A stretch of 64,000 bases of DNA from Coleofasciculus sp. LEGE 07092 (GTDB taxonomy: Bacteria; Cyanobacteriota; Cyanobacteriia; Cyanobacteriales; Coleofasciculaceae), in contig NZ_JADEWY010000012.1 of NCBI RefSeq assembly GCF_015207375.1, positions 1-64,000 of the forward strand, given 5' to 3'. Made by a program: the position numbers and the translations under genes. Below are positions 24,733 to 61,633 of this stretch, in pieces. The notes below the pieces were generated by a model, which saw nothing but the letters and a program-made list of their open reading frames with translations, ran no database searches and had not been told where the DNA came from. Position 1 is the stretch's first letter. Each line of letters opens with the position of its first letter.

Positions 24733-26112
24733 CTACGGGTTAATCCTCAAAAGGCAACTTAACTCCCCATTGCGAAGCCTCGACCAGCTCAAACAATAGG
24801 GGTCAGGGAACGACTGAAGCTTAATCTCTTCAGAAAAATTCCAGACAGGAGATAAAATGGGAGAAGATTCAGCAATAGCCGCCTCAATTGCCGAATCAGC
24901 AAAAGTTTCATCTAGGAATTTCGCCGCTGTAAAATTCTCTGGTACAGAAACCAAAGTTCCTGGTTCTGGGTCAGCCAAAGCTTCTGAGTCAGGAGTAAGA
25001 ATTTCCGAGTCAGAAACTGGTGGATCGGGAGTGAGAACTTGCGGCTCAGGTGCTGGTGGATCGGGAGTGGGAACCTCAGGCTCAGGTGCTGGTGGATCGG
25101 GAATAGGAACTTCCGGCTCAGGCGCTGGTGGATCGGGAGTAGGAACTTCCGGCTCAGGCGCTGGTGGATCGGGAGTAGGAACTTCCGGCTCAGGCGCTGG
25201 TGGATCAGGAGTGGGAACCTCCGGCTCAAGTGCTGGTAGATCGGGAACAGAAGCCCAATCAACACGATAAATATCTCCCTGGCCCTTCAAGATTTCACGA
25301 ATCTGGGATTCAGACTGATTACCAATCAAAACATCAGGCGAACGCAAAACATAGCCAGACACTCCAAGATAAACTAAGACACTACCCTGGAGAGAACCAG
25401 AAAAATTAGTAGAGACAAAAAAAGAGGGAGAAGACGAAACTAGAAGAATATCCGAAAAAGGAAGCTCAAAAGAAGGTTGAGGAATTATACTCCAATTTCC
25501 TGTATTAACATCGATTGTGTAACGACTAAAAATATTAGGAGGAACAGGGATAAGAGTTGTTTGTTCTGCATCCAACCTACCCACACTAACAATTGAACCC
25601 GCACTGAAATTAATCGATTCTGCTTCAATAACGCCAAAGTTCAAAATAGGATTCTTGACAGAGGAACCAAAAACTAAAAACCGAGGTAAAGCTGAACTAG
25701 ATGAATCAGAATCAAGAGGATTAACGGCAAACCATTCTGCCAAATCTTCAAATCGAATCGAAGTAGCTGTAGTCGCTGTAAAGGCAGCCGGAACGTTTAT
25801 CTGAGCATTAGAACCAAAAACGATACCAGACGGATTGATTAAAAAGAAATTAGGAGTACCACCTGTAACAGTCAGTCGCCCATTAATGTAAGAGAAATTC
25901 CCTCCCGTTACTCGATTGAAAAGATTCTGAACTTCAGGCGGGACAAGAAAATCAAGAGACTGATTACTTCCTAAATTCAACTCCTCAAACGTATGAAAAA
26001 GATTAGCTCCTTTCTGGTCACCCCCTGTTACCTGATAATCATTAAGCTGCTGTTCAATCACAACAGTGGGAACCATAGGAGTAATTTGAGCCAAAACCAA
26101 AGATTCAATCAT
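24733..26112 (-). CDS. Filamentous-haemagglutinin (TPS-domain) protein with Pro-rich repeats, carried by the phage-like element
   Basis: 459 residues from the ATG at 26112, whose first base overlaps the Zot stop and which has GGGAGG seven bases upstream. Residues 10-135 are a TPS domain: GGDQKGANLFHTFEELNL, FFLINPSGIVFGSNAQINV, PAAFTATTATSI. The host TPS-CHAT protein at 37569 has nearly the same motifs. After a unique region, six or so PEVPTPDPPAPE repeats form a stalk, then a 100-residue tail with no membrane anchor. The start MIESLVLAQITP keeps the AQ cleavage-site look of host proteins but has no real signal peptide. It occupies the position of gene IV in Ff phages. Candidate adhesin, tail-tip protein or export adaptor. 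Confidence 0.8.
   Translation of the reverse strand: MIESLVLAQITPMVPTVVIEQQLNDYQVTGGDQKGANLFHTFEELNLGSNQSLDFLVPPEVQNLFNRVTGGNFSYINGRLTVTGGTPNFFLINPSGIVFGSNAQINVPAAFTATTATSIRFEDLAEWFAVNPLDSDSSSSALPRFLVFGSSVKNPILNFGVIEAESINFSAGSIVSVGRLDAEQTTLIPVPPNIFSRYTIDVNTGNWSIIPQPSFELPFSDILLVSSSPSFFVSTNFSGSLQGSVLVYLGVSGYVLRSPDVLIGNQSESQIREILKGQGDIYRVDWASVPDLPALEPEVPTPDPPAPEPEVPTPDPPAPEPEVPTPDPPAPEPEVPIPDPPAPEPEVPTPDPPAPEPQVLTPDPPVSDSEILTPDSEALADPEPGTLVSVPENFTAAKFLDETFADSAIEAAIAESSPILSPVWNFSEEIKLQSFPDPYCLSWSRLRNGELSCLLRINP
25017..25240. repeat. 36-bp minisatellite in the TPS gene
   Basis: About six tandem 36-bp units encoding PEVPTPDPPAPE. Units at 25090-25200 are nearly identical and outer ones are degenerate, as expected for recent expansion. 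Antisense open frames across it are by-products. Confidence 0.85.
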
Positions 26113-26876
26113 CAGCACACCTCCCTATAAGAAATCCAAGGTTTAAGAGGATTGACTAAACAAGGATTTTCCTCAACTCGTGCAAACGAGGAATAACACT
26201 TGAAAAGAAGCTTATCAAGAGCCGTAAGATTACCTTGATAAGTCTTCTCAGCTAACTTAAGACTAGACGCATAAGCCTTGAATCCTGTCACCTGTCCCCC
26301 TAACACTTTCCGCTCAAAAACTGTAAAATTACGAGCTGTAAAAATCCTGAAAAACTTACCAACTAACTCCTGATTCCCACCCAGTTTGTCACTATTCTTA
26401 GTTGGACAATCACAAAATATATACGCCGAAGTCAACTCTCGAATTGTTTTATCAGCCTGGTCTTTATATTGTCCTATCCAAAATATACGCCGCGAATCAT
26501 GCCGAACTTGAGCTAAACTTGCTAGAAAATCTAAAGGAATGTTCTTAAAATTCCTAGCATTTAAATAGACAGCACCTGCTTCATCAATAATATAAAGAGT
26601 CTTTTTCTCTCGCATAAATTCACTCAGAAGAAGCTTATCACCAGATGCACAGGAACGAACTTGAATATACCCATGAATCAATCGACTCAAAAGCCAAGTG
26701 TAGCCATTATAAAGAAAATAGTAATAAAGCGCTTTGGCATTCAAATGGAAGTTAGTAATAATATCCAGTTTTAATGCCTCAGCAATCTCAAACCCCACTA
26801 AAAGACTTACAAATGTTTTACCAGAACCCATCTCACCAACAATACCTGTAATAGTTCCCGGTGGAATATAAACCAT
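26112..26876 (-). CDS. Zot/pI-like filamentous phage assembly ATPase
   Basis: 254 residues. Walker A is GIVGEMGSGKTF near residue 12-22, and Walker B is TLYIIDEAGAVYLNAR near 95. LAQVRHDSRRIFWIGQYKDQADKTIREL matches the Zot/pI pattern of an Arg-rich sensor segment followed by a conserved Gln and Asp-x3-Arg. In filamentous phages pI/Zot sits in the inner membrane and drives virion assembly and extrusion. A clear transmembrane span is not obvious here, unlike Ff pI; YYYFLYNGYTWLLSRLI is the only hydrophobic stretch. The start overlaps the preceding stop (TAATG) and the end overlaps the TPS start. Confidence 0.85.
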   Translation of the reverse strand: MVYIPPGTITGIVGEMGSGKTFVSLLVGFEIAEALKLDIITNFHLNAKALYYYFLYNGYTWLLSRLIHGYIQVRSCASGDKLLLSEFMREKKTLYIIDEAGAVYLNARNFKNIPLDFLASLAQVRHDSRRIFWIGQYKDQADKTIRELTSAYIFCDCPTKNSDKLGGNQELVGKFFRIFTARNFTVFERKVLGGQVTGFKAYASSLKLAEKTYQGNLTALDKLLFKCYSSFARVEENPCLVNPLKPWISYREVC

Positions 26877-30817: not shown

Positions 30818-32023
30818 ATGAACAGAAAGATACTCGGCGGAGATATCTGTAAAGACCGTGTTGTCTGTTGGCTTCTAGAGGACAAGCCCGACCACCTACG
30901 GAACTTTTGGAAATCTCAACTCAAATCGAGATCCAAAGACCCCGTAGAAGATACTCAAACTTTCTACTTCACCAAGACAGGCATATCCCATCTGCTTAAA
31001 CTCAAGCCTGATGTTATTGTTCTAGAGCCTACGGGAGTTCATTACTCTTGGTTGTTAGCTCACATCTGCCACTGTGAAGGGATTGAGGTGTTATGGGTTG
31101 GTCATTGTGAGGCAACTCACTACCGCAAATCGAACAAACTCCCCGATAAAAACGACCTAGCAGATGCCTTAGCTCTAGCTGCTTATGCTCATCATTACTG
31201 GGGAAAACCCGATCAGTTCCTCCAGTTCGAACCCGGTGCAATTGTACAAATCAAAGATTTATATCTACAGATGAAATCTCTGACCCGCGTACAGTCACCC
31301 ATCATCAACCGAGTCAGGCAACAACTGTGCCGGGAGTTCCCAGAAGCCGCTTTTAAAGATTCCAAAGTTGGCAAGGACGGATTAACACCTCTTTGGGCAT
31401 GGCTTGGGAATGTTGAGCGCCAAGGAGTACGGCAAAATTTCTACTATGACCGTCTCTACGACAAGTCAGTCGCACCAGCTTACGGCATTGAAATCAGCCA
31501 ATTCTCACAACGATATGCTCAACTACTCTGCCAAATCCACTCCTGGGAGCATGAAGCTGAGAAAAAACTAGCAGAACTGATTCACCTCCCACAGTTCAAA
31601 CGCTACAATCAAATCTTTGATAAGTTCGGAATTGGACTCAGACTAGGAGCGCTGTTACTCTGTCACATTTACCCACTGAGTAAGTTTGAATCTTTGGGCA
31701 GTTTTAAAAAGCGCCTGGGGATGGCAGGAGACGAGATAAGCAGCGGCGACCGTAAAGGATGGAATGCTGGGAGCGGCTCGAAAATGTGCCGAACTGAGCT
31801 TTACCTCTGGATTCTTTGTATCATCGCTCCTAAGAAAAACCGTCCTACCGGAGAAATCGGTCAAAAGCTCGGAGACTTCTATGACACACGTCACGAGCAG
31901 TTTGAGACGAATAATGAGGGTAACGGTAACACCTTTGGGAAACTCATCATCAGCCAGACCGCTGCTTATGGTACAAAGCTACTTTTTAAGGAACTCAAAA
32001 AAGCTCTGATGCTGAAAAACTAA
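30818..32023 (+). CDS. IS110-type DEDD transposase/recombinase
   Basis: 401 residues. The RuvC-like DEDD residues are visible: Asp9 in GGDICKDRVV, Glu70 in VIVLEPTGVHYSWL, Asp113 and Asp116 in DKNDLADALALA. The C-terminal part (FGIGLRLGALLLCHI, SFKKRLGMAGDEISSGDRKG, GSGSKMCRTELYLWI) resembles the Transposase_20 domain with its serine. It is a divergent member. Piv/IS110-type recombinases are known to accompany some Neisseria filamentous prophages, so this gene may integrate the element; it could also be an unrelated insertion sequence. Confidence 0.8.
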   Translation: MNRKILGGDICKDRVVCWLLEDKPDHLRNFWKSQLKSRSKDPVEDTQTFYFTKTGISHLLKLKPDVIVLEPTGVHYSWLLAHICHCEGIEVLWVGHCEATHYRKSNKLPDKNDLADALALAAYAHHYWGKPDQFLQFEPGAIVQIKDLYLQMKSLTRVQSPIINRVRQQLCREFPEAAFKDSKVGKDGLTPLWAWLGNVERQGVRQNFYYDRLYDKSVAPAYGIEISQFSQRYAQLLCQIHSWEHEAEKKLAELIHLPQFKRYNQIFDKFGIGLRLGALLLCHIYPLSKFESLGSFKKRLGMAGDEISSGDRKGWNAGSGSKMCRTELYLWILCIIAPKKNRPTGEIGQKLGDFYDTRHEQFETNNEGNGNTFGKLIISQTAAYGTKLLFKELKKALMLKN

Positions 32024-32043
32024 AGGCTCTCACACCACATTAC

Positions 32044-32117
32044 TACCTGAATTTTCCTGAATATTCGGGTAGTAACTTCTACCACTAGGCTCTAAGTCTT
32101 TATACTTAGAGCCTCTC
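32044..32117 (+). terminator. Two hairpins after the IS110-type gene
   Basis: ACTACCTGAAT pairs with ATTCGGGTAGT (one wobble) and AGGCTCTAAG pairs with CTTAGAGCCT, followed by TCTCTTCG. They may be a terminator and the structured right end of the insertion element. Confidence 0.55.
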
Positions 32118-32176
32118 TTCGTACTACATTGGCAACCTAGAGTGAAAGTGAAAGGGAAGGGCAACAAGAAGTCAAC

Positions 32177-32294
32177 TATCCCTCTTCTGTCACTTTCCGA
32201 AATTCTGACGAATTTCCGTCATTACAGCCAACTACACCTAACGCAAGAATCAGGGTTGGCCCCCCATTTTTCGCAATCTGACAGAAGAGGGATA
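32177..32294. repeat. 114-bp MITE, family A copy 1
   Basis: Core 32179-32292 with perfect inverted ends TCCCTCTTCTGTCA / TGACAGAAGAGGGA, flanked on both sides by TA. A second copy of the same length lies inverted at 36592-36705. No coding capacity. Confidence 0.85.
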
Positions 32295-32335
32295 ATAGTA
32301 AACGCAAGTATGTCTTTATCAGAGGCTTGGCAGTC

Positions 32336-32914
32336 ATGACGCTCACATCCCAGCAAATGACGCTATTAGAGTATCTTAACTATGACGATGGCACGGATAC
32401 TCTTTATGAATTGGTGAACGGGGAGTTGGTGATTATGCCGCCAGAAAGTGAACTCAACAGACGGATTGCCATGTTCTTGTTAGTCTGCTTTCTGCAACAG
32501 GGAATTCCTGCTTATCGGTTGACTCAGAAGACAGAATTGGTAGTGAGTGGTTCACGGGCAACGACGCGCTTACCGGATTTAATGGTGCTTTCTGAAGAAC
32601 TGGCAACGGCGTTAGAAGGGGCGAATCGGTCTACTGTGATGATGGATATGCCGCCGCCAGAGTTGGTGGTTGAAGTGGTGTCACCCGGGAAAAAAGGCAT
32701 CGACCGAGATTATCGTTATAAGCGGTCTGAGTATGCAGCGCGGGGGATTGCCGAGTATTGGATTGTTGACCCGATTGAAGGGCGAGTCACGGTGTTGGAG
32801 TGGGTGGAAGGGTTGTATGAGGAGCGGGTTTTTCAGGGGAATGAGCCGATTGTTTCGCCGATGCTGCCAAATTTAGATTTGACCTGTGAGAGGGTAATGA
32901 ATGCGGGAGGTTGA
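32336..32914 (+). CDS. Uma2 family (DUF820) putative endonuclease
   Basis: 192 residues from the ATG at 32336 (an upstream TTG would add three). YELVNGELVIMPPESELN, TTRLPDLMVLSEELA, PPELVVEVVSPGKKGIDRDYRYKRSEYAARGIAEYWIVDP are classic Uma2 motifs, including the acidic residue and Glu of the nuclease-like core. Function unknown. It begins 40 bp after the MITE, so the MITE may provide its promoter. The C-terminal half corresponds to the degenerate repeats seen at 17032 and 17751. Confidence 0.86.
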   Translation: MTLTSQQMTLLEYLNYDDGTDTLYELVNGELVIMPPESELNRRIAMFLLVCFLQQGIPAYRLTQKTELVVSGSRATTRLPDLMVLSEELATALEGANRSTVMMDMPPPELVVEVVSPGKKGIDRDYRYKRSEYAARGIAEYWIVDPIEGRVTVLEWVEGLYEERVFQGNEPIVSPMLPNLDLTCERVMNAGG

Positions 32915-33065: not shown

Positions 33066-33522
33066 ACGTCTTCATTCAGTGTTAATTGTTCATTCATCTG
33101 AGTTGATATTGATAGAAAACAGCAAAACTTTTGCAAATTGCCAGAAGGGTGAAGAGAGTTTATCTCTAAATTCTCCCCAACTCTGCTGCTGCTGTACTCT
33201 CCTACTGACAACATCTTAGCTCCTCTAGGTTAGGAGTGGGTTAAATTACGGCAAAAGCAAAGATTTTTGAAATTGTTGGCAGGGGACTTGACAAATAAGA
33301 TTTTTTGTTCAATCCTTACCAAGGGCTTAAAAATAGCACTTAAGTTATGCTCTAGTCGAAGGAGCTTAACTTAAACGAAGCCTTGGGGTGTTTATCTATA
33401 CATTTTTACAAAGTCTTTATAGATTTGTTTACGAACTCTTCATTTGTACTTAAGCAAACACTCCTGTTCCAGCTTCAAACTATTGATATCAGTAATGTAG
33501 TCCGGTAATCAGCGGTCGCCTA
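33066..33522. other. Intergenic region upstream of the cyclase gene
   Basis: 457 bp without a gene. AT-rich runs around 33280-33440 probably hold the cyclase promoter. No RNA family recognised. Confidence 0.4.
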
Positions 33523-35397
33523 ATGCTTTCCCTCTCAATAATGGACGGTTTATCTTGGAGGCAACCCGTATTAGCTCAAGATGTCACCCTGTCTGACAGT
33601 GTGGTAACGATGGTATTTACTGACCTTGTTAGCTCCACCGCAGTCAAAAAATACTTGAATGGTAGTGATATTACTGCCCGGAATCGTCTCTACTTTGACA
33701 ATATCCTCAAGCCGCACCGCCAACGAGTCGAAACCAGTCTAGCCATTTACGGGGGGCGTGTGGTTAAGACAGAGGGCGACGCTTATTTCCTGGTTTTTGC
33801 CAGCGCTGCTCAGGCAGCACAATGGGCTGTAGCACTCCAAATTAGCCACATGACTGACCCCATTGATACTCCACTGGGTCCGTTACAAGTCAAAATTGGG
33901 ATGCACACGGGCAGTCCTCTCCCAGACGGGGATGATTTTATTGGAGAGGAAGTAGACTATGCGGCTCGTGTTTCCTCACAGGCTAGGGGTGGGCAAATTC
34001 TGCTTTCGGAAGTCACAACGGTACTTGTACGCAACGTCGGGCTAGTTGGTTCAAGACTGGTGCGGCGTGGCACTCGCAACTTGAAAGGCATTGGCAAAGT
34101 GCCGCTTTTTGAACTGCTTTACCTTAGTAAAAAGCAACAGCAGCTTCAGAAAACCAGGAAACCACAACGTTTGGGTGTTCAACTGTTGGCAAGTCTTGCT
34201 GGTGCAAGTGTAGCCATTGGTGTTGGTTTATCAGGGATGCTACAACCCTTAGAGATGAAGACGTTTGATCACCTGATGCAAGCGCGTCCTCAAAATGAAG
34301 CGCCCGATCCGCGCTTGCTGTTGATTACCATTACCGAATCAGATGTGCAGGCTCAATCCCCTGAAAAACGGAAAGGTTCGTCTTTATCCAATTCCAAATT
34401 AGATCAACTGCTCAAAACACTGGTACAGTATCAACCGCGAGTGATTGGCATCGACCTTTATCGGGATTTTCCGATCGAGCCCCAGCATCAAGATTTAGCC
34501 AACCGCTTGGGGCAGGACAATCGTCTGATTAGTGTATGCAAGATTGGTGAATCTGAAGAAAAGCCTGGTATTCCACCGCCGCCAGATATTTCATCAGATA
34601 GCGTGGGAGAGCGGGTTGGTTTTAGCGACGTTGCCACCGATTCCGATGGGATTGTACGTCGTCAGTTGTTAGGTTTAGCTCCTCCCGAACAGTCAGTTTG
34701 TCAAACGAGTAATTCTTTGAGTTTAGCGATCGCTCTGCGGTATCTGGAACCGGAAGGCATTACGGCTCAACTGACTGAAACCGATGATTTGCAGATTGGC
34801 AGTGCTGTTTTTCGCACCTTACAAAAGAACAGTGGCGGTTATAACCCTATTGATGCGGGAGGCTACCAGACCTTACTCAACTACCGTGCTACCGGTTCGA
34901 TGGATGCGATCGCTCCTCAATATACCCTTAAAGAGGTGCTTGAGGAAAAGAAGCTCACCCCCGAATTAGTTCGCGATCGCATTATTCTCATTGGTACTGT
35001 TGATGAAACTTTTCAGGACTTTCACGTTACTCCCTATCATCTAGCTGGGCAGTCCAAAACAGCAGGAGTTGTTCTTCAAGCCCATATGATCAGTCAAATT
35101 ATTAGTGCAGCTCAGGATGAACGTCCCTTGTTATGGTGGTGGTCGCAATGGGCGGAATATCTTTGGATCGGCAGTTGGTCTTTAGTTGGATGTATCGTCA
35201 CTTGGCGCTGTCGGTCAATCTTGGTAATGAGTATAGCCGTCGGAGGAACACTATGCATTCTCTATGGGGGCTGTTACTTCATCTTCACTCAGGGAGGTTG
35301 GGTTCCCTTCGTCCCATCAGCCCTAGCGATAGTGGTTACGAGTGGGCTTGTTAGGGTTTATTATTCACATCCAGTCTTAGCCTATTCAATCGCCTAG
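33523..35397 (+). CDS. Membrane adenylate/guanylate cyclase with C-terminal CHASE2 sensor (inverted order)
   Basis: 624 residues. A class III cyclase domain comes first (about 25-205): metal-binding MVFTDLVSST, KTEGDAYFLVF, VKIGMHTG, and VDYAARVSSQARGGQILLSE. One span (about 225-245), a CHASE2 sensory domain outside the membrane (about 250-520), then three C-terminal spans. Usual CHASE2 cyclases have the sensor first and cyclase last, so the order is reversed. The Asn of the transition-state pair (N-x-A-A-R) is Asp here. It is followed by a DUF928 gene, then the CHAT protein, a familiar cyanobacterial neighbourhood. Confidence 0.85.
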   Translation: MLSLSIMDGLSWRQPVLAQDVTLSDSVVTMVFTDLVSSTAVKKYLNGSDITARNRLYFDNILKPHRQRVETSLAIYGGRVVKTEGDAYFLVFASAAQAAQWAVALQISHMTDPIDTPLGPLQVKIGMHTGSPLPDGDDFIGEEVDYAARVSSQARGGQILLSEVTTVLVRNVGLVGSRLVRRGTRNLKGIGKVPLFELLYLSKKQQQLQKTRKPQRLGVQLLASLAGASVAIGVGLSGMLQPLEMKTFDHLMQARPQNEAPDPRLLLITITESDVQAQSPEKRKGSSLSNSKLDQLLKTLVQYQPRVIGIDLYRDFPIEPQHQDLANRLGQDNRLISVCKIGESEEKPGIPPPPDISSDSVGERVGFSDVATDSDGIVRRQLLGLAPPEQSVCQTSNSLSLAIALRYLEPEGITAQLTETDDLQIGSAVFRTLQKNSGGYNPIDAGGYQTLLNYRATGSMDAIAPQYTLKEVLEEKKLTPELVRDRIILIGTVDETFQDFHVTPYHLAGQSKTAGVVLQAHMISQIISAAQDERPLLWWWSQWAEYLWIGSWSLVGCIVTWRCRSILVMSIAVGGTLCILYGGCYFIFTQGGWVPFVPSALAIVVTSGLVRVYYSHPVLAYSIA

Positions 35398-35666
35398 TTT
35401 GGTTTTTTTGCTTGCGGTTTAACCTAATTTTTATTAATTTTAAGTAGTCCGACATCAAGAAACGTAACGTTGCCAAAAAAATAATGAAATCGCCCGAACT
35501 TTCCTCCACTCCCAACCCCAAGGCTTCCCTCATTAGTAACCTTTATTTGTGTCAAGTTGCTGAGTAGAGAAAGCCAAGTTATAATCGATTAAGATTTCGC
35601 GTTTATCCGGATACTGATACTCAGTTTAGTATTAGTTACTATTCCATAATAGACTTGATTTAAGTC

Positions 35667-36479
35667 ATGAAAAGGATATGGTTATCGTTTCAGCAAATAA
35701 AGCGTGCTGTAGCGATCGCATCGGTGCTCAGTGTCTGTATCATTAATCCTATTAACGCTCAACCTCTACCGAATAGAGGGGCTGATAACGTTTCATCGCT
35801 CAGGCAGATTCATTTTAATTCCCCAGACCTCACGGGCAGGGGACGCCCGGGCGATCGCAAAAGTGCAGCCAGTCGCGGTCAATGTCACCTTGGTAACTCC
35901 TCCGAATCGCTGTATGCTTTAATTCCTGATACAAATTTGGGATTAACGGTAGACGGGCATCCAACGTTTTGGTTCTATTTTCCCGACCAAGTTAGTAAAT
36001 TCCACTCCATGAAATTTGCGCTGTGGAGTGAAAAGGGTCAGAAAATTTACGAAACGACCTATCAAGCGGCAACTATTCAACCGGGTGTTGTCAGTATTCC
36101 TGTGCCAGAAACAGCACCCGTGCTAGAACAGAACCAAAACTACAACTGGATTTTGACCGCTTATTGCGAAGACCCACAACAGGCATCTGATCCAACAGAT
36201 CCCCAAAAAGTCCGAGTCAGAGGTTCAATTCAGCGAATTACACCCACTCCAGAACTAGAGCAAGAACTCAAAGCCGCCGTCACACCCCGAGAACAAGCAT
36301 ACCTCTACGCTCAGAAGGGTGTTTGGTTCAATGCCTTAACCATCCTCGGCAATCTTCGCCGTACCGAAACGGGCAATGGAACCCTTGACACTGATTGGAC
36401 TAATTTGTTAAGTGATATTGGTCTCAACGAGATTTCGCAGAAACCGATTGTCGAATGCTGTAGGGCTTCTAGCAACTAA
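35667..36479 (+). CDS. DUF928 family exported protein
   Basis: 270 residues: signal peptide (AVAIASVLSVCIINPINA), then the DUF928 domain (YALIPDTNLGLTVDGHPTFWFYFP, VSIPVPETAPVLEQNQNYNWILTAYCE). DUF928 genes commonly stand beside CHAT/haemagglutinin and CHASE2 genes in cyanobacteria. Periplasmic, role unknown. An in-frame GRGRPGDRKS stretch looks like a small repeat insertion. Confidence 0.85.
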   Translation: MKRIWLSFQQIKRAVAIASVLSVCIINPINAQPLPNRGADNVSSLRQIHFNSPDLTGRGRPGDRKSAASRGQCHLGNSSESLYALIPDTNLGLTVDGHPTFWFYFPDQVSKFHSMKFALWSEKGQKIYETTYQAATIQPGVVSIPVPETAPVLEQNQNYNWILTAYCEDPQQASDPTDPQKVRVRGSIQRITPTPELEQELKAAVTPREQAYLYAQKGVWFNALTILGNLRRTETGNGTLDTDWTNLLSDIGLNEISQKPIVECCRASSN

Positions 36480-36480
36480 A

Positions 36481-36591
36481 TATAGCGTTTCTTTATCTAC
36501 GGAGGTACACCCTCATGAAGGTAGGGAGTAGGGAGTGGGGAGTAGGGAGTAGGGAATAGGACTGTACCTCATCTAAGTGAGAACCGCTATA
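36481..36591. repeat. MITE-like repeat, family B copy with heptamer repeats inside
   Basis: TATAGCGTTTCT...GGAGGTACA at the left and TGTACCTCA...GAACCGCTATA at the right; the interior (36521-36560) is a run of GTAGGGA/GGGGAGT heptamers. It abuts a family A MITE on its right, sharing the TA. Confidence 0.7.
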
Positions 36592-36707
36592 ACCCTCTTC
36601 TGTCAGACTGCGAAAAATGGGGGTCAAACCCTGATTCTTGCGTTAGGTGTAGTTGGCTGTAATGACGGAAATTCGTCAGAATCTCGGAAAGTGACAGAAG
36701 AGGGATA
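36590..36707. repeat. 114-bp MITE, family A copy 2 (inverted)
   Basis: Core 36592-36705, flanked by TA at both sides, and the reverse complement of 32179-32292 with only a few differences. It inserted at, or was joined to, the TA end of a family B element. Confidence 0.85.
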
Positions 36708-37568
36708 AGTAAGTGAGTATTACTATTTGTCGTTGAAGCAAGGCAGAGGGTATAAGGCAGAAGGGAAGAGAAGTTGACACTCTTAAGATTTTTTAACATA
36801 CCTTCATTTACGTCGAATAGCTTAGAATAAGAAGGGGAGCAAGGAAGAGACGTTGACTACCTTGAAGTCCCCTTATTAATATGTCAGCGTGTCGTACATC
36901 GCAACTGAGTTGTATTTATCTGAGTAGCTTCTGAGCCAAAAAGGGTCAGCTTCTCTAAATCTGGCGATTATAACGGCAGTTTCCTGCCAGAAGAAAAGAC
37001 GCAGTGTAAGCGCTCAAGAATTAATCAAGTCCAGGTTCCTGTAAATTTGTCCTAAGAACGAGCGTCTTTTCCACGGGTAAAGAGCTGGCTCTAGCTTTGT
37101 ACAGCCAAGCGGTCGAACCAATCTGGCGTGCCTGTAAGTTATATCTGAGCTATACCTTGTCTATTGCAAGATTAAGAAAAATCCCCAGTTTCCTTCAAAT
37201 GAAAAACAGTGTAAATTAAAGTCGTGTCAACTTACTAAACCAGCTTGGTAAAAATAACCCATCAGTTGGGATGCGATGAAGAGGGAGTGGGGAGTAGTGG
37301 GAAACTTATGGTAAATTTCCGCCGGGTAGTCTAGTCCAATAGCAATAATAAACAATAGGGGGAGTATTCTCAAAACCTTGACGATCACTGAGAGTTGATA
37401 GTATACCACGCCTCCCGCTACTCCGCTCTTGAGCCGATGACCGCTTCATCTGATTAGGATTCGGTGCAGCTACCTACTTAGAAAGTTCTGTTGATAGGGG
37501 TGAAGAACGCTTATCGGTGAAGTTCGCACTATCAATTCCACCCATTTTTCATACAATCGATTACCCCC
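36708..37568. other. Long leader of the TPS-CHAT gene with structured segment
   Basis: About 860 bp. Inverted repeats: GAAAAGACGC (36993-37002) with GCGTCTTTTC (37062-37071), and GGCAG-TTTC-CTGCC at 36975-36988. A heptamer-repeat trace is at 37282-37302. It might contain a small RNA; nothing recognised. Confidence 0.4.
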
Positions 37569-40500
37569 ATGGTTAATGCTGTCGTTAAAGTAACAACTCT
37601 GCTGTTGGCTGCCTTACCCATTTTGGGAGCGCCCAACCTGGCTTTATCAACAAGCCTTTTAAACGATAATACTATAGTTAAAGACGCATTACCCAGTAAT
37701 CATTCGGTAATAGTGGCTCAGTCTATTACTCCTGCTGATGGTACGGGGACGAATGTCACTCTGACGGGCAACGAATTCAATATTGACGGTGGCACGCCTT
37801 CAACGGATGGGGCGAATTTATTCCACAGCTTCTGGGATTTTGATCTTTTAGCCGGTGAAGTTGCCAACTTTTTATCGAATCCCCAGATTCGCAATATCTT
37901 AGGGCGAGTTGTTGGTGGTCAGGCTTCAATTATTGATGGTTTAATTCAGGTAACGGGGGGTCACTCCAATTTATTCTTAATGAATCCAGCCGGGATAGTG
38001 TTTGGCTCGAATGCTAGCTTAAACGTCCCAGCATCCTTTACAGCGACAACCGCCACTGGCATTGGTTTTGCTGGAGATAATTGGTTCAATGCCATTGGTA
38101 CGAGTAACTACCAGAACTTAATAGGTAATCCCACCCAGTTTGCCTTCGATTTAGCTCAACCTGGCACTCTGATTAATGGGGGCAATCTGGCAGTATTGCC
38201 GGGAGAAACTTTAGCCTTACTGGGTGGCAGTGCTATTAATACTGGTCAACTGACGGCACCGGGAGGTACGATCGCTATTGTTGCAGTACCAGGTCAGCAT
38301 CGCCTCCGCATTAGCCAACCGGGACTACTGTTAAGTTTAGAAATTGATTCGCCACGTCAGGTAGATGGTCAGATGGCATCCATTCGCCCTCAAGATTTAC
38401 CACTGCTACTGACGGGTTCGGCACAGACGGTAGAGACGGGACTGAACGTTTCTCCAACGGGTCAAGTACAGCTCAAAGAGTCGGGGATTCATGTAATAGC
38501 AGAGGCAGGTGAGGCAATTGCTTCCGGCACTCTGGATGTTTCTAATTTTTCCGAAAATAGCAATTCCCAATCGGTAAATGTTTTGGGAAACAAAGTCGGA
38601 GTCTTTGACGCCACGATTAACGCTTCTGGAATTAATGGGGGTACAGTGCGGATTGGTGGCGGTTATCAAGGTCAAGATTCCGTGTTTAATGCCTCCCAAA
38701 CCCTAGTCAGTGAAAATTCAAAAATTACTGCTGATGCTTTAACGAATGGGAATGGGGGTCAGATAACGGTTTTTGCAGAGGGAGTGACAGGCTTTTACGG
38801 GGATATTAGCGCCCGTGGTGGAAACCGGGGAGGTGATGGTGGAGTTGTGGAAGTGTCGGGTAAGGAGTTGCTAATTTTTACAGGTTTTGTAGATGCAGGT
38901 GCTTCTGAGGGTAAACCTGGCAGTTTGTTACTCGATCCCAAGGATATCATTATTGGAGACTCCACCTCTCCCTTGGCACAACTCTTTAATCCGAATACCT
39001 CAACAAGCAACCAATTTGGCTATTCAGTAGCAGCGGTGGGGTCGAATGTCGTGGTGGGAGACCCAGGCGACGATACACTAGCATTAAATGCAGGTGCTGC
39101 TTATTTGTTTGATAGCAGTGGGATGTCACTGCAAGAGTTTTTTAGCCCCAATCCTACTGTTAATGGTGGGTTTGGGACAGCGGTAGCTGGGGTGGGGTCG
39201 AATATACTGGTGGGTGCTCCTGGAGATATGGGAACAGGAGCCGCTTACCTGTTTAATACCAGTGGGATGCGACTACAATCCTTTCGCAAGCCTACTCCAG
39301 TAAGCGGCGATCAATTCGGCTTTTCAGTTACTGGGGTGGGGTCGAATGTGCTGGTGGGTGCTCCTGGAGATGACACTGGGGGAATGAATGCGGGTGCTGC
39401 CTATTTGTTTGAGAGCAATGGCAACCCCCTGCAAACCTTCACCAGTCTTAATGCGACAACGAATGGTCAATTTGGCTATTCGGTAGCTGGGGTTGGGTCA
39501 GATATACTTGTCGGTGCCCCAGGAGAGAACATATTTGTGGGTAGCATCATCAGAACAGCGGGTGCTGCCTATTTGTTTGAGAGCAATGGCAACCCATTGC
39601 AAAGGTTCATCAGTCCTAATCCTACGGATGGTGGTAAGTTCGGTAATGCAGTGGCTGGAGTCGGCTCGAATATACTCGTGGGTGCTCCTGGTGACAATTC
39701 TGGACTGGGAACTATCGGTGCTGCTTATCTGTTTAACAGCAGTGGCGAACCGTTGCAAACCTTCGAGAATCCCAATCCTACCAATAGCGGTAAATTTGGG
39801 ACTTCCATCACGGCAGTAGGCTCGAACGTATTAGTGGGTGCCCCTAGCGATAACCCAGGGCAGGAAACGACAGGTGCTGCTTATGTGTTTGATTTAGAGA
39901 GTGGCAACTTACGGCAAACCTTCCCCAACCCTGACACACTCAGCAATTTCGGTAATGCAGTAACTGGAGTGGGAGGGCAGATATTCATAGGAGCGCCTGG
40001 AAATCCTGACGATACAGGAGTTGTCTATGGGTTTGCATCGAGCTTCACCTTTGAAGATAATCCCAACCAACCCGTTACGATTGATGCCAGCACCATTACC
40101 AATATCACTAGGACGGGAACTGATATGGTGCTACAGGCTAATAATGACATTACTGTAGATCGGGCAATTATTACTCAGTCGGGGGGAGTTGGAGGAGGGC
40201 TAACCTTACAAGCAGGTCGGAGTATTTTTGTCAATGCCGATATTGAGACGGCTAACGGTGATTTAACCTTAGTTGGTAATGATACTAATGCGATCGCTCA
40301 ATTTCGTGATCCAGGACAAGCTGAGATTGTTATCTTGCCTGGAGTAACGCTTAATTCAGGCACCGGCGATACAACCATTAGGCTGGATACGGGTGCTGAA
40401 AGTGGGGATATTACTCTAGGCAATATTATTGCCGGAAATCTGATTGTAGAAAACAAGAGTCTGGGGGGTGGTGTAGAAATTCCGGAAATGACAGCGATTA

Positions 40501-43058
40501 ACCTCACGGGAAACGCTGACATTACCACGACGGGGGGTGACATTCTCAGCAGCAGTACTATCACCACGGCTGGCGGTGAGATTCGCTTCAGCAGTCAGGG
40601 TGGCACGATTCAAGTTGATAATGCCTTGACTCTCACAGGTGACACTTTCCTTTCTACAGGTATTGGTGGTGGTGATATTCTCTTCAACAATCAGATTGAT
40701 GGCAACCGCAACCTCAACCTGACGGCTGGAACTGGCAACGTTAGCTTTGGGGGTGCAGTGGGCAGTATCACCCCAATGGGTAACATTATTATTGAAAGTG
40801 CGGGTAATATAACGGCAAATAATGCGATCGCAGCTAATCGCTTCACTCAGACTACATCGGCAACAGGTGCGATTAACTTGGCAGACTTACAAATTTCGGG
40901 TGGGGATGTAAAGCTAAGTACCGCGAACAATCTCACTACGGGTAATATTACGACGGCTAGGGGTGATATTAATCTGACTAGTGAGACGGGAACTGTTAAT
41001 AGTGATGATTTAAATTCCGGTGGTGGCAAAGTAGAGCTGAGGGCTAGTAGTAATCTGACTACGCAGACTATCACCTCGGTTGGTGGGGATATTCAGGTAA
41101 CAAGTCAGACGGGAAGTGTAAATAGCGGTGACTTAGATTCCGGCGGTGGCAAGGTGGGAGTCAGTGCTAATACTAATCTGACTCTGGGTAATGTCACTAC
41201 GGCAGGCGGTGAGATAAACCTCACCAGTCAAACCGGAGAAGTGAGCACTAATAATTTGAATTCCTCGGCGGCAACTGGGGGTGACATCACGGTGAATGCG
41301 GCTATCAGTATTAAGACTGGAGCGATTGATTCTAGTGGTACTGAAGGGGATGGCGGCAATGTCACTCTTGATCCCCTCAATGATATTAGTGTTGCCTCTA
41401 TCAATGCTCAAGGGGGATCTCGTGGTCAAGGTGGTAATGTTGATATTACAACCCAGAGATTTTTCCAATCTACCGATAGTTTTAGCGATCGCAACGGTAC
41501 AGAGGCTAGCATTTCTACCGCTGGCGGTAATGGTGGTGGTGCTATTACCATTCGTCATGATGGCGGTGCCAGGAATATTCCCTTTGTGGTGGGTGATGGG
41601 AGTGAGAATGGGACGGCGGGAGCAATTACGAGTGGGAATTTTACGATTTCTCCCAATCAGTCGTTTCCAGGAAGCTATACGTTGGGTAATATCCGCCTGA
41701 TTACAACTGATCCGAATAGTCCCACGAATCCTAGTCAACCCAACCTATCATTAGGGATTGATTTTAGTAAAGATTTTCAGTCCATCCTAGAATCACTGAC
41801 GGCGACGAAAGACAGTTCTACTACTAATTCCCCAATTATTGACTTTGGTGTGAATGAGGCGGAGCGACGTTTTACCCTGGAATTTCAGAAATATCTGGGG
41901 CTCCAACCCACTCCCATTCTCACCCTAGACGAAATTCGCGATCGCTTGCGCAATATCGAGGCAGCCACTGGCATCAAACCGGCTATCATCTACGCGGTGT
42001 TCGTACCCGAAACCACTGGGAATGAAAAGGAGCTAGAACTGATTTTGGTAACAGCCAATCAAGAGGTGATTCGTAAGCGAGTGCTAGGGGCAAATCAAAC
42101 GGATGTACTGGCTGTTGGACAGGAATTCCGCCAGGAAATTACTGACGGTGGATTGGGTTATTTTGATGCCGCTCAACAACTGTATCAGTGGCTAGTGGCA
42201 CCATTAGAACCGGATTTACAAGCTCAAGGGGTTGATAATCTCGTTTTTATCCTCGATGCTGGTTTGCGATCGCTACCCTTAGCAGCCCTTCATGATGGTA
42301 ACAATTTTCTGGTACAGCGATATAGTGTAGGTCTAATGCCCAGTGTCAGCTTGACAGATACCCGTTATGTCAGTGTCAAGAACCTACCAATTTTGGCAAT
42401 GGGATCATCAGAATTCCCTGACAACCCTGAACTAAACCAATTACCAGCCGCCTCCGTCGAAGTGCCTTTACTTGCTGATACTATTTGGCAAGGTCGAGGA
42501 TTTCTCAATGAGGAGTTCACCCTTGATAATCTGAAGGCACAACGCCAGCAGATAGCATTTGGGCTGGTTCACTTGGCAACCCACGCTGAATTTAAATCGG
42601 GAGAACTCAGCAATTCCTATATCCAGTTATGGGATACGAAAGTGAGATTGGATCAAGTAAGGACTCTGGGTTGGAATAAACCCCCTGTAGAATTGTTAGT
42701 ACTGAGTGCCTGCCGTACTGCCTTAGGTGATCCAGAAGCGGAACTCGGCTTTGGTGGGTTTTCAGCTAAAGCTGGGGTTAAGTCGGTACTCGCTACTTTG
42801 TGGTATGTCGAAGATTGGGGAACTCTGCCGTTGATGGCTGAGTTTTACAACCAGTTGGACGAAGCCCCCATCAAAGCCGAAGCATGGCGACGGGCACAGA
42901 TGGCAATGATTGAAGGGACGGTCAGGTATGAGGACGGTGAGTTAATATTATCGGATAAACAAATAGCTTTGCCACCCACTCTCGAAAATCTCAGTAATCC
43001 TGACCTATCACATCCTTATTATTGGGCGGCATTTACGATGATTGGTAATCCTTGGTAA
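37569..43058 (+). CDS. Giant secreted TPS-domain protein with seven FG-GAP-like repeats and CHAT protease domain
   Basis: 1829 residues. Signal peptide, then a TPS domain (about 50-250; GANLFHSFWDFDL, FLMNPAGIVFGSNASLNV, SFTATTATGI) for export through a TpsB-type outer-membrane porin. Residues about 455-820 contain seven repeats of FGxxVxxVGSNxLVGAPGD...GAAYLF, enough for a complete seven-bladed beta-propeller. A Gly/Thr-rich beta-helix follows (about 830-1380). The C-terminal 400 residues are a CHAT caspase-like domain with His in LVHLATHAEF and Cys in LLVLSACRTALGD. A surface protease is the expected role; substrate unknown. No TpsB gene is in the window. Confidence 0.9.
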   Translation: MVNAVVKVTTLLLAALPILGAPNLALSTSLLNDNTIVKDALPSNHSVIVAQSITPADGTGTNVTLTGNEFNIDGGTPSTDGANLFHSFWDFDLLAGEVANFLSNPQIRNILGRVVGGQASIIDGLIQVTGGHSNLFLMNPAGIVFGSNASLNVPASFTATTATGIGFAGDNWFNAIGTSNYQNLIGNPTQFAFDLAQPGTLINGGNLAVLPGETLALLGGSAINTGQLTAPGGTIAIVAVPGQHRLRISQPGLLLSLEIDSPRQVDGQMASIRPQDLPLLLTGSAQTVETGLNVSPTGQVQLKESGIHVIAEAGEAIASGTLDVSNFSENSNSQSVNVLGNKVGVFDATINASGINGGTVRIGGGYQGQDSVFNASQTLVSENSKITADALTNGNGGQITVFAEGVTGFYGDISARGGNRGGDGGVVEVSGKELLIFTGFVDAGASEGKPGSLLLDPKDIIIGDSTSPLAQLFNPNTSTSNQFGYSVAAVGSNVVVGDPGDDTLALNAGAAYLFDSSGMSLQEFFSPNPTVNGGFGTAVAGVGSNILVGAPGDMGTGAAYLFNTSGMRLQSFRKPTPVSGDQFGFSVTGVGSNVLVGAPGDDTGGMNAGAAYLFESNGNPLQTFTSLNATTNGQFGYSVAGVGSDILVGAPGENIFVGSIIRTAGAAYLFESNGNPLQRFISPNPTDGGKFGNAVAGVGSNILVGAPGDNSGLGTIGAAYLFNSSGEPLQTFENPNPTNSGKFGTSITAVGSNVLVGAPSDNPGQETTGAAYVFDLESGNLRQTFPNPDTLSNFGNAVTGVGGQIFIGAPGNPDDTGVVYGFASSFTFEDNPNQPVTIDASTITNITRTGTDMVLQANNDITVDRAIITQSGGVGGGLTLQAGRSIFVNADIETANGDLTLVGNDTNAIAQFRDPGQAEIVILPGVTLNSGTGDTTIRLDTGAESGDITLGNIIAGNLIVENKSLGGGVEIPEMTAINLTGNADITTTGGDILSSSTITTAGGEIRFSSQGGTIQVDNALTLTGDTFLSTGIGGGDILFNNQIDGNRNLNLTAGTGNVSFGGAVGSITPMGNIIIESAGNITANNAIAANRFTQTTSATGAINLADLQISGGDVKLSTANNLTTGNITTARGDINLTSETGTVNSDDLNSGGGKVELRASSNLTTQTITSVGGDIQVTSQTGSVNSGDLDSGGGKVGVSANTNLTLGNVTTAGGEINLTSQTGEVSTNNLNSSAATGGDITVNAAISIKTGAIDSSGTEGDGGNVTLDPLNDISVASINAQGGSRGQGGNVDITTQRFFQSTDSFSDRNGTEASISTAGGNGGGAITIRHDGGARNIPFVVGDGSENGTAGAITSGNFTISPNQSFPGSYTLGNIRLITTDPNSPTNPSQPNLSLGIDFSKDFQSILESLTATKDSSTTNSPIIDFGVNEAERRFTLEFQKYLGLQPTPILTLDEIRDRLRNIEAATGIKPAIIYAVFVPETTGNEKELELILVTANQEVIRKRVLGANQTDVLAVGQEFRQEITDGGLGYFDAAQQLYQWLVAPLEPDLQAQGVDNLVFILDAGLRSLPLAALHDGNNFLVQRYSVGLMPSVSLTDTRYVSVKNLPILAMGSSEFPDNPELNQLPAASVEVPLLADTIWQGRGFLNEEFTLDNLKAQRQQIAFGLVHLATHAEFKSGELSNSYIQLWDTKVRLDQVRTLGWNKPPVELLVLSACRTALGDPEAELGFGGFSAKAGVKSVLATLWYVEDWGTLPLMAEFYNQLDEAPIKAEAWRRAQMAMIEGTVRYEDGELILSDKQIALPPTLENLSNPDLSHPYYWAAFTMIGNPW

Positions 43059-59767: not shown

Positions 59768-61633
59768 ATGAGAGCTTATATGGGTCAAGATTATCAGCAC
59801 GTTATAGAACAGTTAGGTATTAATATTGTTCTTTTGTTTGAGAGGCTAGATGCTCTTTCCAATAGAAGGAAGCTCAGTGAACTTGATAAAAAAATTATTT
59901 GTCAATCTCTGTTGGGCTACTCTCGACAGCAAATCGCGAATCTATCCGATTTATCTGGACAAAATATTAGAGATAGACTGAGTAATTATATCTATCCTAG
60001 AATAGCTGATTTAATGCAGGTTGATCAAGAGCAGATAGCTGGTAACTGGGTAAGGATTCTCAATTTCTTAATCAATCCAGATAATAATTATAAATTGAAT
60101 CCTGCTCCTCAGTTAAATAGTGATAACTTTCAAGGAAGTTTTGGAAGGCAATTTTTTATTTATCCTCCTAATCAAGAGATTGTAAAATCTCAAATTGAAG
60201 GAGCGAAATTTTATCAACAAGGACTTTACTATCAAGCCTTGCTCTGCTTTTCCCAGGCTTGGAGAAGCGAGAAGAAATTATGTACTAAGGGTAATCCAGA
60301 AGTTTTAATTTATATCAATAACTGCTTAATCGAGGATAAAAAATCGCTTTTAGAAGAAAAGGGGATTAAAATATATACCCTAGCTGTAGTTGTCCCCTTT
60401 TATCATAATCAGGGTCAAGTTGCTGCTGAAATTTTGCAAGGAATTGCCCAGATTCAATTTCAGGTGAATCTGCAAAGCTTTAAAAGAACTTCCCTTGAGC
60501 AAGAAATAAGCTTAGACGGAATAAAACCCAATACCAATCTATCCTTTACTGGAATTTTCAATAATCCCGATTGTCAAATAGCCTTACGAATCCTCATTGT
60601 CAATGACCCTAATAATTTATACGATCCCTACAACCAAACAGCCGAAAATTTAGCGAATTTAGTCCCTCAATTAAACTTGATAGCTGTCATCGGACACTAC
60701 TCTAGCGAAATGACCAGAAATGCACTGCATTTTTATTCTAAAAATGGAATAATTTTAGTGAACTCTAGTAGTACATCCAATGAACTTTCTCATTTATCTG
60801 TGGGTGAACGTTCAGCCTTTTTTCGGCTGACGACTCACGATAAAATTAATGCTAAAGGATTGACTGATTATTTAATAGGGAAATTCCCCAAAAATCGTCA
60901 AATAAAAGTTGCTGTTATTTACAACCTAAATAGCACTTATAGTACTTCATACCGGAATACAGTTAGGGAGTATTTAGAACAGTATGAAAAACAGCTTATC
61001 TTTCTAGAAGAGTGTAGTTATATCAGCAATGATTATTATCAAGTCCAAGCTTATCTACAAAAGATTCAACACGATGGGGTTGACATCATTATCATCATTC
61101 CCGATGGCGGAATTGAACCGAATTCCCTTAATAATGCTGGATTGATTAGCCGATTGAATCTCAAAACCTGTCTAATTGCTGGTTCAGCTACTTTTTACCA
61201 GAAGAATGTTCTCCATTGGATTCACGAGCAAAGTCAGTCTAATTTTATGAATCATGATGAGTGTCAAATTGTAGCCTGTATTCCTTGGCATTGGCACAGT
61301 CACGAAAATGGCTGCAATAGTTCTAATTTTATAGCCCAGATGTTTTGTCAAATCGGTACTCAATTATGGGGAGAAGAAAATTTGACGTGGCGGAGTGCAA
61401 CAGCGTTTGACTCTGTATTAATCATTCTGAGAGTTTTAGAAAAATATCAGATCCAAGACGGTCAAGTTTTACTGAGACAGATGGATCGATATTTCAAAAA
61501 ACAGAGAGGAGAAGTGAAGGGAGTTACAGGACATATCAAATTTGATGAAGCAGGCGATCGCATCAATCCACCTACAGAAATAGTTGCGGTAAAATGGAAT
61601 GCACAGCAGCAAAAATGGAAATGGGCACTTTAA
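59768..61633 (+). CDS. HTH-like domain fused to periplasmic-binding-protein fold (no signal peptide)
   Basis: 621 residues. The N-terminal 110 (LDKKIICQSLLGYSRQQIANLSDLSGQNIRDRLSNYIYPRIADLM) look like the HTH/effector-associated modules at the start of cyanobacterial NTPase and WD40 proteins. A short TPR-like segment (AKFYQQGLYYQALLCFSQAW) follows. From about residue 205 the protein is a type I periplasmic-binding fold of the Leu/Ile/Val class (LAVVVPFYHNQGQVAAEILQG, VIGHYSSEMTRNALHFYSKNGIILVNSSSTS). There is no signal peptide, so it should be cytoplasmic. A ligand-sensing regulator is plausible. Confidence 0.75.
   Translation: MRAYMGQDYQHVIEQLGINIVLLFERLDALSNRRKLSELDKKIICQSLLGYSRQQIANLSDLSGQNIRDRLSNYIYPRIADLMQVDQEQIAGNWVRILNFLINPDNNYKLNPAPQLNSDNFQGSFGRQFFIYPPNQEIVKSQIEGAKFYQQGLYYQALLCFSQAWRSEKKLCTKGNPEVLIYINNCLIEDKKSLLEEKGIKIYTLAVVVPFYHNQGQVAAEILQGIAQIQFQVNLQSFKRTSLEQEISLDGIKPNTNLSFTGIFNNPDCQIALRILIVNDPNNLYDPYNQTAENLANLVPQLNLIAVIGHYSSEMTRNALHFYSKNGIILVNSSSTSNELSHLSVGERSAFFRLTTHDKINAKGLTDYLIGKFPKNRQIKVAVIYNLNSTYSTSYRNTVREYLEQYEKQLIFLEECSYISNDYYQVQAYLQKIQHDGVDIIIIIPDGGIEPNSLNNAGLISRLNLKTCLIAGSATFYQKNVLHWIHEQSQSNFMNHDECQIVACIPWHWHSHENGCNSSNFIAQMFCQIGTQLWGEENLTWRSATAFDSVLIILRVLEKYQIQDGQVLLRQMDRYFKKQRGEVKGVTGHIKFDEAGDRINPPTEIVAVKWNAQQQKWKWAL

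Follow-up and report, generated by a model that had tools for sequence, protein, structure and literature searches.

Introduction

The Trichodesmium metacaspase-CHASE2 protein is a cyanobacterial CHASE2 receptor (PMC3501461). The receptor analyzed here shares with it a cytoplasmic N-terminal output, one transmembrane (TM) segment, a CHASE2 domain and further TM segments. However, its output is a cyclase, and DUF928, TPS or CHAT partners are not described in the available part of that paper. A Nostoc WD40-CHASE2-DUF928 cluster has been presented as occurring in one of seven species (PMC5587647). CHASE2 and DUF928 are found together there as in the present locus, but the partners are WD40 proteins and there is no TPS or CHAT protein. 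HetF and the TPR-CHAT proteins belong to the CHAT family PF12770 (PMC8406250). HetF functions in division and in the formation of heterocysts, whereas the CHAT domain described here is tied to a TPS exoprotein. In a literature search that had most subscription journals outside its scope, DUF928 was encountered only in PMC5587647 and a CHAT domain together with CHASE2 in no paper.

FHA-like TpsA exoproteins share with this exoprotein the PF05860 TPS domain, the NPAG motif and beta-helix type repeats. Unlike these, it carries a propeller insert and a CHAT C-terminus, and a TpsB gene is not beside it. The integrin alpha propeller has the same seven FG-GAP blades; the propeller analyzed here differs in being inserted in a TPS beta-helix, and no beta-subunit partner is seen. 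Discussion of caspase-like proteins in cyanobacteria has centred mostly on cell death. Those described here resemble parts of envelope signalling, and exported caspase-like CHAT proteases are placed in the context of a receptor.

Gene order at the locus

The window (the whole stretch of DNA analyzed, 64,000 nt) is from a cyanobacterial genome of 6.7 Mb in which family searches match 25 TPS, 15 DUF928, 18 CHASE2, 52 CHAT and 5 TpsB-type proteins. The initial annotation had a CHASE2 cyclase, an exported DUF928 protein and an 1829-residue TPS-propeller-CHAT protein as neighbours, and the open reading frames and Pfam, whose matches all score far above threshold, agree with this (Table 1). All three open reading frames are intact and are on the plus strand of the window. 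The intergenic gaps are 269 bp between the receptor and DUF928 genes and 1089 bp between the DUF928 and TPS genes; this is loose for an operon, so co-transcription is no more than presumptive, which counts against the reading of the genes as one module. A promoter and terminator scan gave signals that were not above those of shuffled sequence. A tandem repeat of the heptamer GTAGGGA is present in the larger gap, at window positions 36521–36560.

Table 1. Features of the locus, with positions in the window.
Feature	Position	Strand	Basis
Cyclase-TM-CHASE2-TM receptor, 624 aa	33523..35397	+	ORF, Pfam
Class III nucleotide cyclase domain, residues 27-195	33601..34107	+	Pfam Guanylate_cyc 5e-12; Ma1120 alignment
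CHASE2 extracytoplasmic domain, residues 231-557	34213..35193	+	Pfam 1.8e-62; hydropathy
DUF928 protein, 270 aa	35667..36479	+	ORF, Pfam
TPS-propeller-CHAT exoprotein, 1829 aa	37569..43058	+	ORF, Pfam
TPS secretion domain, residues 52-272	37722..38384	+	Pfam PF05860 4.9e-45; NCBIfam TIGR01901 1.7e-21
Seven-blade FG-GAP propeller, residues 468-825	38970..40043	+	Pfam, repeat HMM, AF2, Foldseek
CHAT caspase-like domain, residues 1534-1827	42168..43049	+	Pfam PF12770 5.1e-66

A gene set conserved across cyanobacteria

The neighbourhood in the window is a real conserved module that is widespread in cyanobacteria and almost undescribed. A scan with patterns built from CHASE2 only, using one genome per species, gave 80 CHASE2 loci. 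Of these, 67 encode an N-terminal output domain and have 1.5 kb or more of downstream sequence; DUF928 is the next gene on the same strand within 1 kb in 58/67, and the median gap is 31 bp. Where the downstream sequence extends to 7 kb or more (48 loci), a TPS gene is found in 31 and a CHAT gene in 30. Rough chance expectations from the gene densities of the window genome are 0.18 (DUF928), 3.6 (TPS) and 7.2 (CHAT), in a comparison where the loci are related to each other and some are from one genome, so that its p-values should not be read at face value. CHASE2, DUF928 and TPS are ordered on one strand in 15 loci, with DUF928-TPS gaps of up to 1.06 kb.

Sampling that started from DUF928 shows CHASE2 nearby at 25/39 loci, and CHASE2, TPS or CHAT at 30/39. 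At the other nine no partner was seen within the stretch examined. These 39 loci were hand-picked from the best-scoring matches, and among weaker members the fraction may differ; G005:C163 (L235) is not a DUF928 sample and is excluded from the count. In the window's own genome, 11 of 13 DUF928 loci have one or more partner genes. Among 149 genomes, DUF928 is present in 134 of the 137 in which the cyclase-CHASE2 protein finds a match and in 0/12 of the rest, figures whose weight is lowered by kinship.

Relatives of the cyclase-CHASE2 protein in other families are also beside DUF928, TPS and CHAT genes (L104, L111–L116). The three-gene order of the window is repeated in Scytolyngbya (L122: cyclase-CHASE2, DUF928, TPS-CHAT) and, with the propeller included, in G089 (L104). 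CHASE2, DUF928, TPS and CHAT are in one neighbourhood in the window, L104, L114–L116, L122 and others; thus the genes are not scattered in relatives. Of six propeller-TPS loci, only two, the window and L104, adjoin DUF928 and CHASE2 genes. At L101 the contig carries these at a distance of about 14 kb, and at L102, L103 and L105 they were not seen within the stretch examined.

The same counts bear on whether the genes form two unlinked pairs, i.e. a CHASE2-DUF928 envelope sensor and a TPS-CHAT adhesin whose CHAT serves only in maturation or release of the exoprotein. The CHASE2-DUF928 linkage is tighter than that of TPS or CHAT, several CHASE2-DUF928 loci display no TPS, and propeller-TPS-CHAT proteins also occur away from CHASE2. 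However, both TPS and CHAT are near CHASE2 well above chance and the 15 ordered loci are all on one strand, and two separate pairs are considered unlikely. A single module is the preferred reading and its parts are described below.

The receptor

In the window receptor the cyclase is N-terminal to CHASE2. By hydropathy, CHASE2 is preceded by one TM segment (residues 221–239) and followed by C-terminal hydrophobic segments. Ma1120 is the closest solved cyclase and the best match in the PDB (1.2e-14). Alignment with Ma1120 shows that the metal Asp residues D34 and D86, the base-selecting K82 and D138 and the transition-state R149 are all kept. The base-selecting Lys and Asp are also kept in Ma1120, and the transition-state Asn, whose position is occupied by D145 here, is missing in both. 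Unlike Ma1120, the window cyclase is fused to CHASE2 across the membrane. Its product is probably cAMP.

The cytoplasmic part of the receptor is swapped between relatives and may be CHAT-like, AAA_35, kinase, trypsin-like or cyclase. Most relatives carry an extra N-terminal output domain (CHAT-like, AAA_35, Pkinase or Trypsin_2), and the His-Cys dyad is intact in 74/74 of the CHAT-like domains. The window receptor and its nearest relative, L121, have the cyclase alone. As L121 likewise is without the N-terminal CHAT-like domain, its absence in the window is not a recent break. The window DNA from position 33391 onward, which includes the 5′ region, is 70% identical to that of a Coleofasciculus MAG. 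A candidate remnant of a CHAT-like domain upstream of 33523 was rejected, as it is a lone weak tblastn match (25%, E 0.005) inside an intact Uma2 open reading frame.

Three loci of the window's own genome (L084, L086 and L090) show the reverse order, CHASE2 first and then cyclase, and DUF928 is again adjoining. L122:9356–11869 encodes a Trypsin_2-cyclase-CHASE2 receptor whose serine-protease motifs seem degenerate by eye.

The DUF928 protein

The DUF928 protein of the window matches PF06051 at residues 66–261 (9.6e-53, Pfam). It displays an export signal at approximately residues 1–31, an Ig-like sandwich at 91–190 and four helices at 195–249, and the AF2 model of the sandwich and helices is confident (pLDDT 85, 69 sequences). 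A sequence search of the PDB gave no significant match. The only fold match is RoxP (1.8e-4), which has a low TM-score and was not counted as evidence. L082:240–3050 is a tandem of three DUF928 genes with no CHASE2 within the 15 kb examined.

DUF928 follows CHASE2 rather than any given output. This suggests that the two proteins meet in the periplasm, where they may be in direct contact. A family of unknown function thus gains CHASE2 as a likely partner.

The TPS scaffold and its propeller

The TPS domain displays an NPAG motif at residue 139. The initial annotation had a seven-blade FG-GAP-like propeller and named residues 440–830 for modelling. Such a propeller is predicted; the repeat block spans residues 468–825. 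Pfam detects six FG-GAP_2 repeats (1.8e-38) and a local repeat HMM detects seven. Among 21 sets with at least five repeats, the window included, there are seven repeats in 20 and eight in one, which matches the expectation for a closed seven-blade ring. An AF2 model of residues 300–960 (19 sequences) has a mean pLDDT of 85.5 and the propeller is mostly above 90. In Foldseek searches against the PDB the best 50 matches are integrin entries only (E about 1e-14 to 1e-12), and a PDB sequence search with the propeller gives integrin alpha-L as the sole match (E 0.0085).

The predicted fold is well supported by this modelling, and the best PDB matches are to integrin alpha, as the initial description "integrin-like" would have it. 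However, a motif search found no DxDxDG calcium loops of the integrin type anywhere in the TPS-propeller-CHAT protein, and the description is thus valid for the fold only. The propeller is predicted and the gene set is conserved, so neither of the two outcomes that would have refuted the initial annotation was observed.

The propeller begins 15 residues past an LLLDPKDI rung of the TPS beta-helix, and downstream of it the sequence resumes like the unbroken beta-helix of L094. In other TPS proteins where the rung motif was located, the insert is 15–21 residues after the rung. FG-GAP inserts are found at this site in the window, L101, L104, L105 and L102 (four repeats), and DUF5650 inserts in L108, L109 and L110. 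L103 also has a propeller; the rung-motif search matched another spot there. The rung position appears to be a swap site for repeat families. Use of one insertion site by both FG-GAP and DUF5650 families makes ligand specificity directly testable. The DUF5650-type repeats of L108, L109 and L110 number 9–10, and the FG-GAP model also matches the first of these. A 123-bp tandem repeat of 2.5 copies is present at window positions 40929–41243, where the TPS gene encodes the beta-helix.

A TpsB transporter gene is usually, not universally, found beside that of its TpsA protein. The TpsB partner envisaged in the initial annotation is absent from the window's contig (C208); elsewhere the genome has five ShlB/TpsB-like genes against the 25 TPS matches. 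The exoprotein may possibly be served by a shared TpsB.

The CHAT domain and its compartment

The CHAT domain is a predicted protease with H1672 and C1715 as the putative catalytic dyad. The His and Cys are invariant in 61/61 CHAT domains compared. CHAT is fused to TPS in the window. Elsewhere it mostly belongs to a separate TPR-CHAT protein, which has an export signal but no TPS domain. A simple hydropathy rule detects an N-terminal hydrophobic export signal in 33 of 48 CHAT open reading frames that have no TPS domain; most of the remainder are truncated open reading frames or pieces of TPS-type proteins. At L185 and L200, which are sister to the TPS-fused clade, the separate CHAT proteins display lipobox-like signals. 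L115:1466–8329 has TPS and TPR-CHAT as one open reading frame, and the sister loci L114 and L116 have two genes.

As separate TPR-CHAT proteins have an N-terminal export signal only, the periplasm is the simplest common place. C-terminal parts of some TPS proteins, e.g. FhaB and CdiA, are retained in the periplasm. CHAT is thus most likely periplasmic, although a separate TPR-CHAT protein could cross the outer membrane by another route, which counts against this placement. The initial annotation had the whole protein outside of the cell, with the propeller catching a ligand, CHAT cutting it and the cyclase reporting; the TPS domain does imply outer-membrane export, the dyad is intact and the neighbourhood is conserved, but the proposal gives no route from cleavage outside to CHASE2 and the export and lipoprotein-type signals of the equivalent separate proteins point to the periplasm, and this is improbable.

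Proposed mechanism

The preferred reading, with a probability of roughly 0.4, is that the window genes are one copy of an envelope module in which CHAT switches the CHASE2 receptor, via DUF928 or CHASE2, after the propeller has bound. It derives from the order of the genes, the swapping of domains and the compartments that these imply. The TPS beta-helix would be pushed through a shared TpsB pore so that the propeller is shown outside, where a surface or a ligand may be bound. CHAT, at the C-terminus, would stay, or act, on the periplasmic side beside the ectodomain of CHASE2 and DUF928. Once a ligand is bound, the access or activity of CHAT may change, and CHAT would then cut or otherwise switch DUF928 or CHASE2. 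The receptor, which spans the inner membrane, could in turn make its cytoplasmic domain more or less active; in the window this domain is the cyclase, probably making cAMP. The module in the window also has a propeller of integrin shape and a nucleotide cyclase, and thus probably relays surface signals inward. The earlier proposal that the cyclase reports the event holds to the extent that a signalling role fits the anatomy of the receptor.

Alternatively, the locus may be a conflict or cell-death module, in which phage or a competitor is sensed at the surface and a cytoplasmic effector (CHAT-like, AAA_35, kinase or cyclase) responds. The swapped effector domains are of types common in conflict systems, and CHAT-type proteases with intact dyads appear to be on both sides of the membrane. 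One phage-resistant line of Nostoc carries a mutation in a filamentous-hemagglutinin-type gene (PMC10811720). The cyclase parts of relatives L114 and L112 weakly match Pycsar cyclase models (2e-7 and 3.5e-9), but this is taken to reflect no more than kinship among class III cyclases. A PADLOC search with the three window proteins gave no match to a defence model. DUF928 can reach about 20 copies in one genome and occurs in about 90% of the genomes sampled, which better fits routine sensing. A conflict role is therefore considered doubtful.

The envelope module may, more tentatively, be extended to cyanobacteria as a whole. It would be a trans-envelope signalling system, hitherto unnamed, in which a surface exoprotein steers a periplasmic, caspase-like CHAT protease that switches an inner-membrane receptor with interchangeable cytoplasmic outputs, and recognition would be set by propellers inserted at a single fixed site of the exoprotein.

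Other features of the window

An IS110-type transposase gene and a Uma2 gene are directly upstream of the module (window positions 30818–32914). At 59768–61633 the window encodes a 621-aa protein with a periplasmic ligand-binding domain at its C-terminus (PF01094, PF13458). On the minus strand, at 24736–26876, a gene for a 461-aa TPS-domain protein overlaps that of a 254-aa Zot-like ATPase (PF05707, 1.3e-5; PHROG 197, 2.9e-8), which is an odd pairing.
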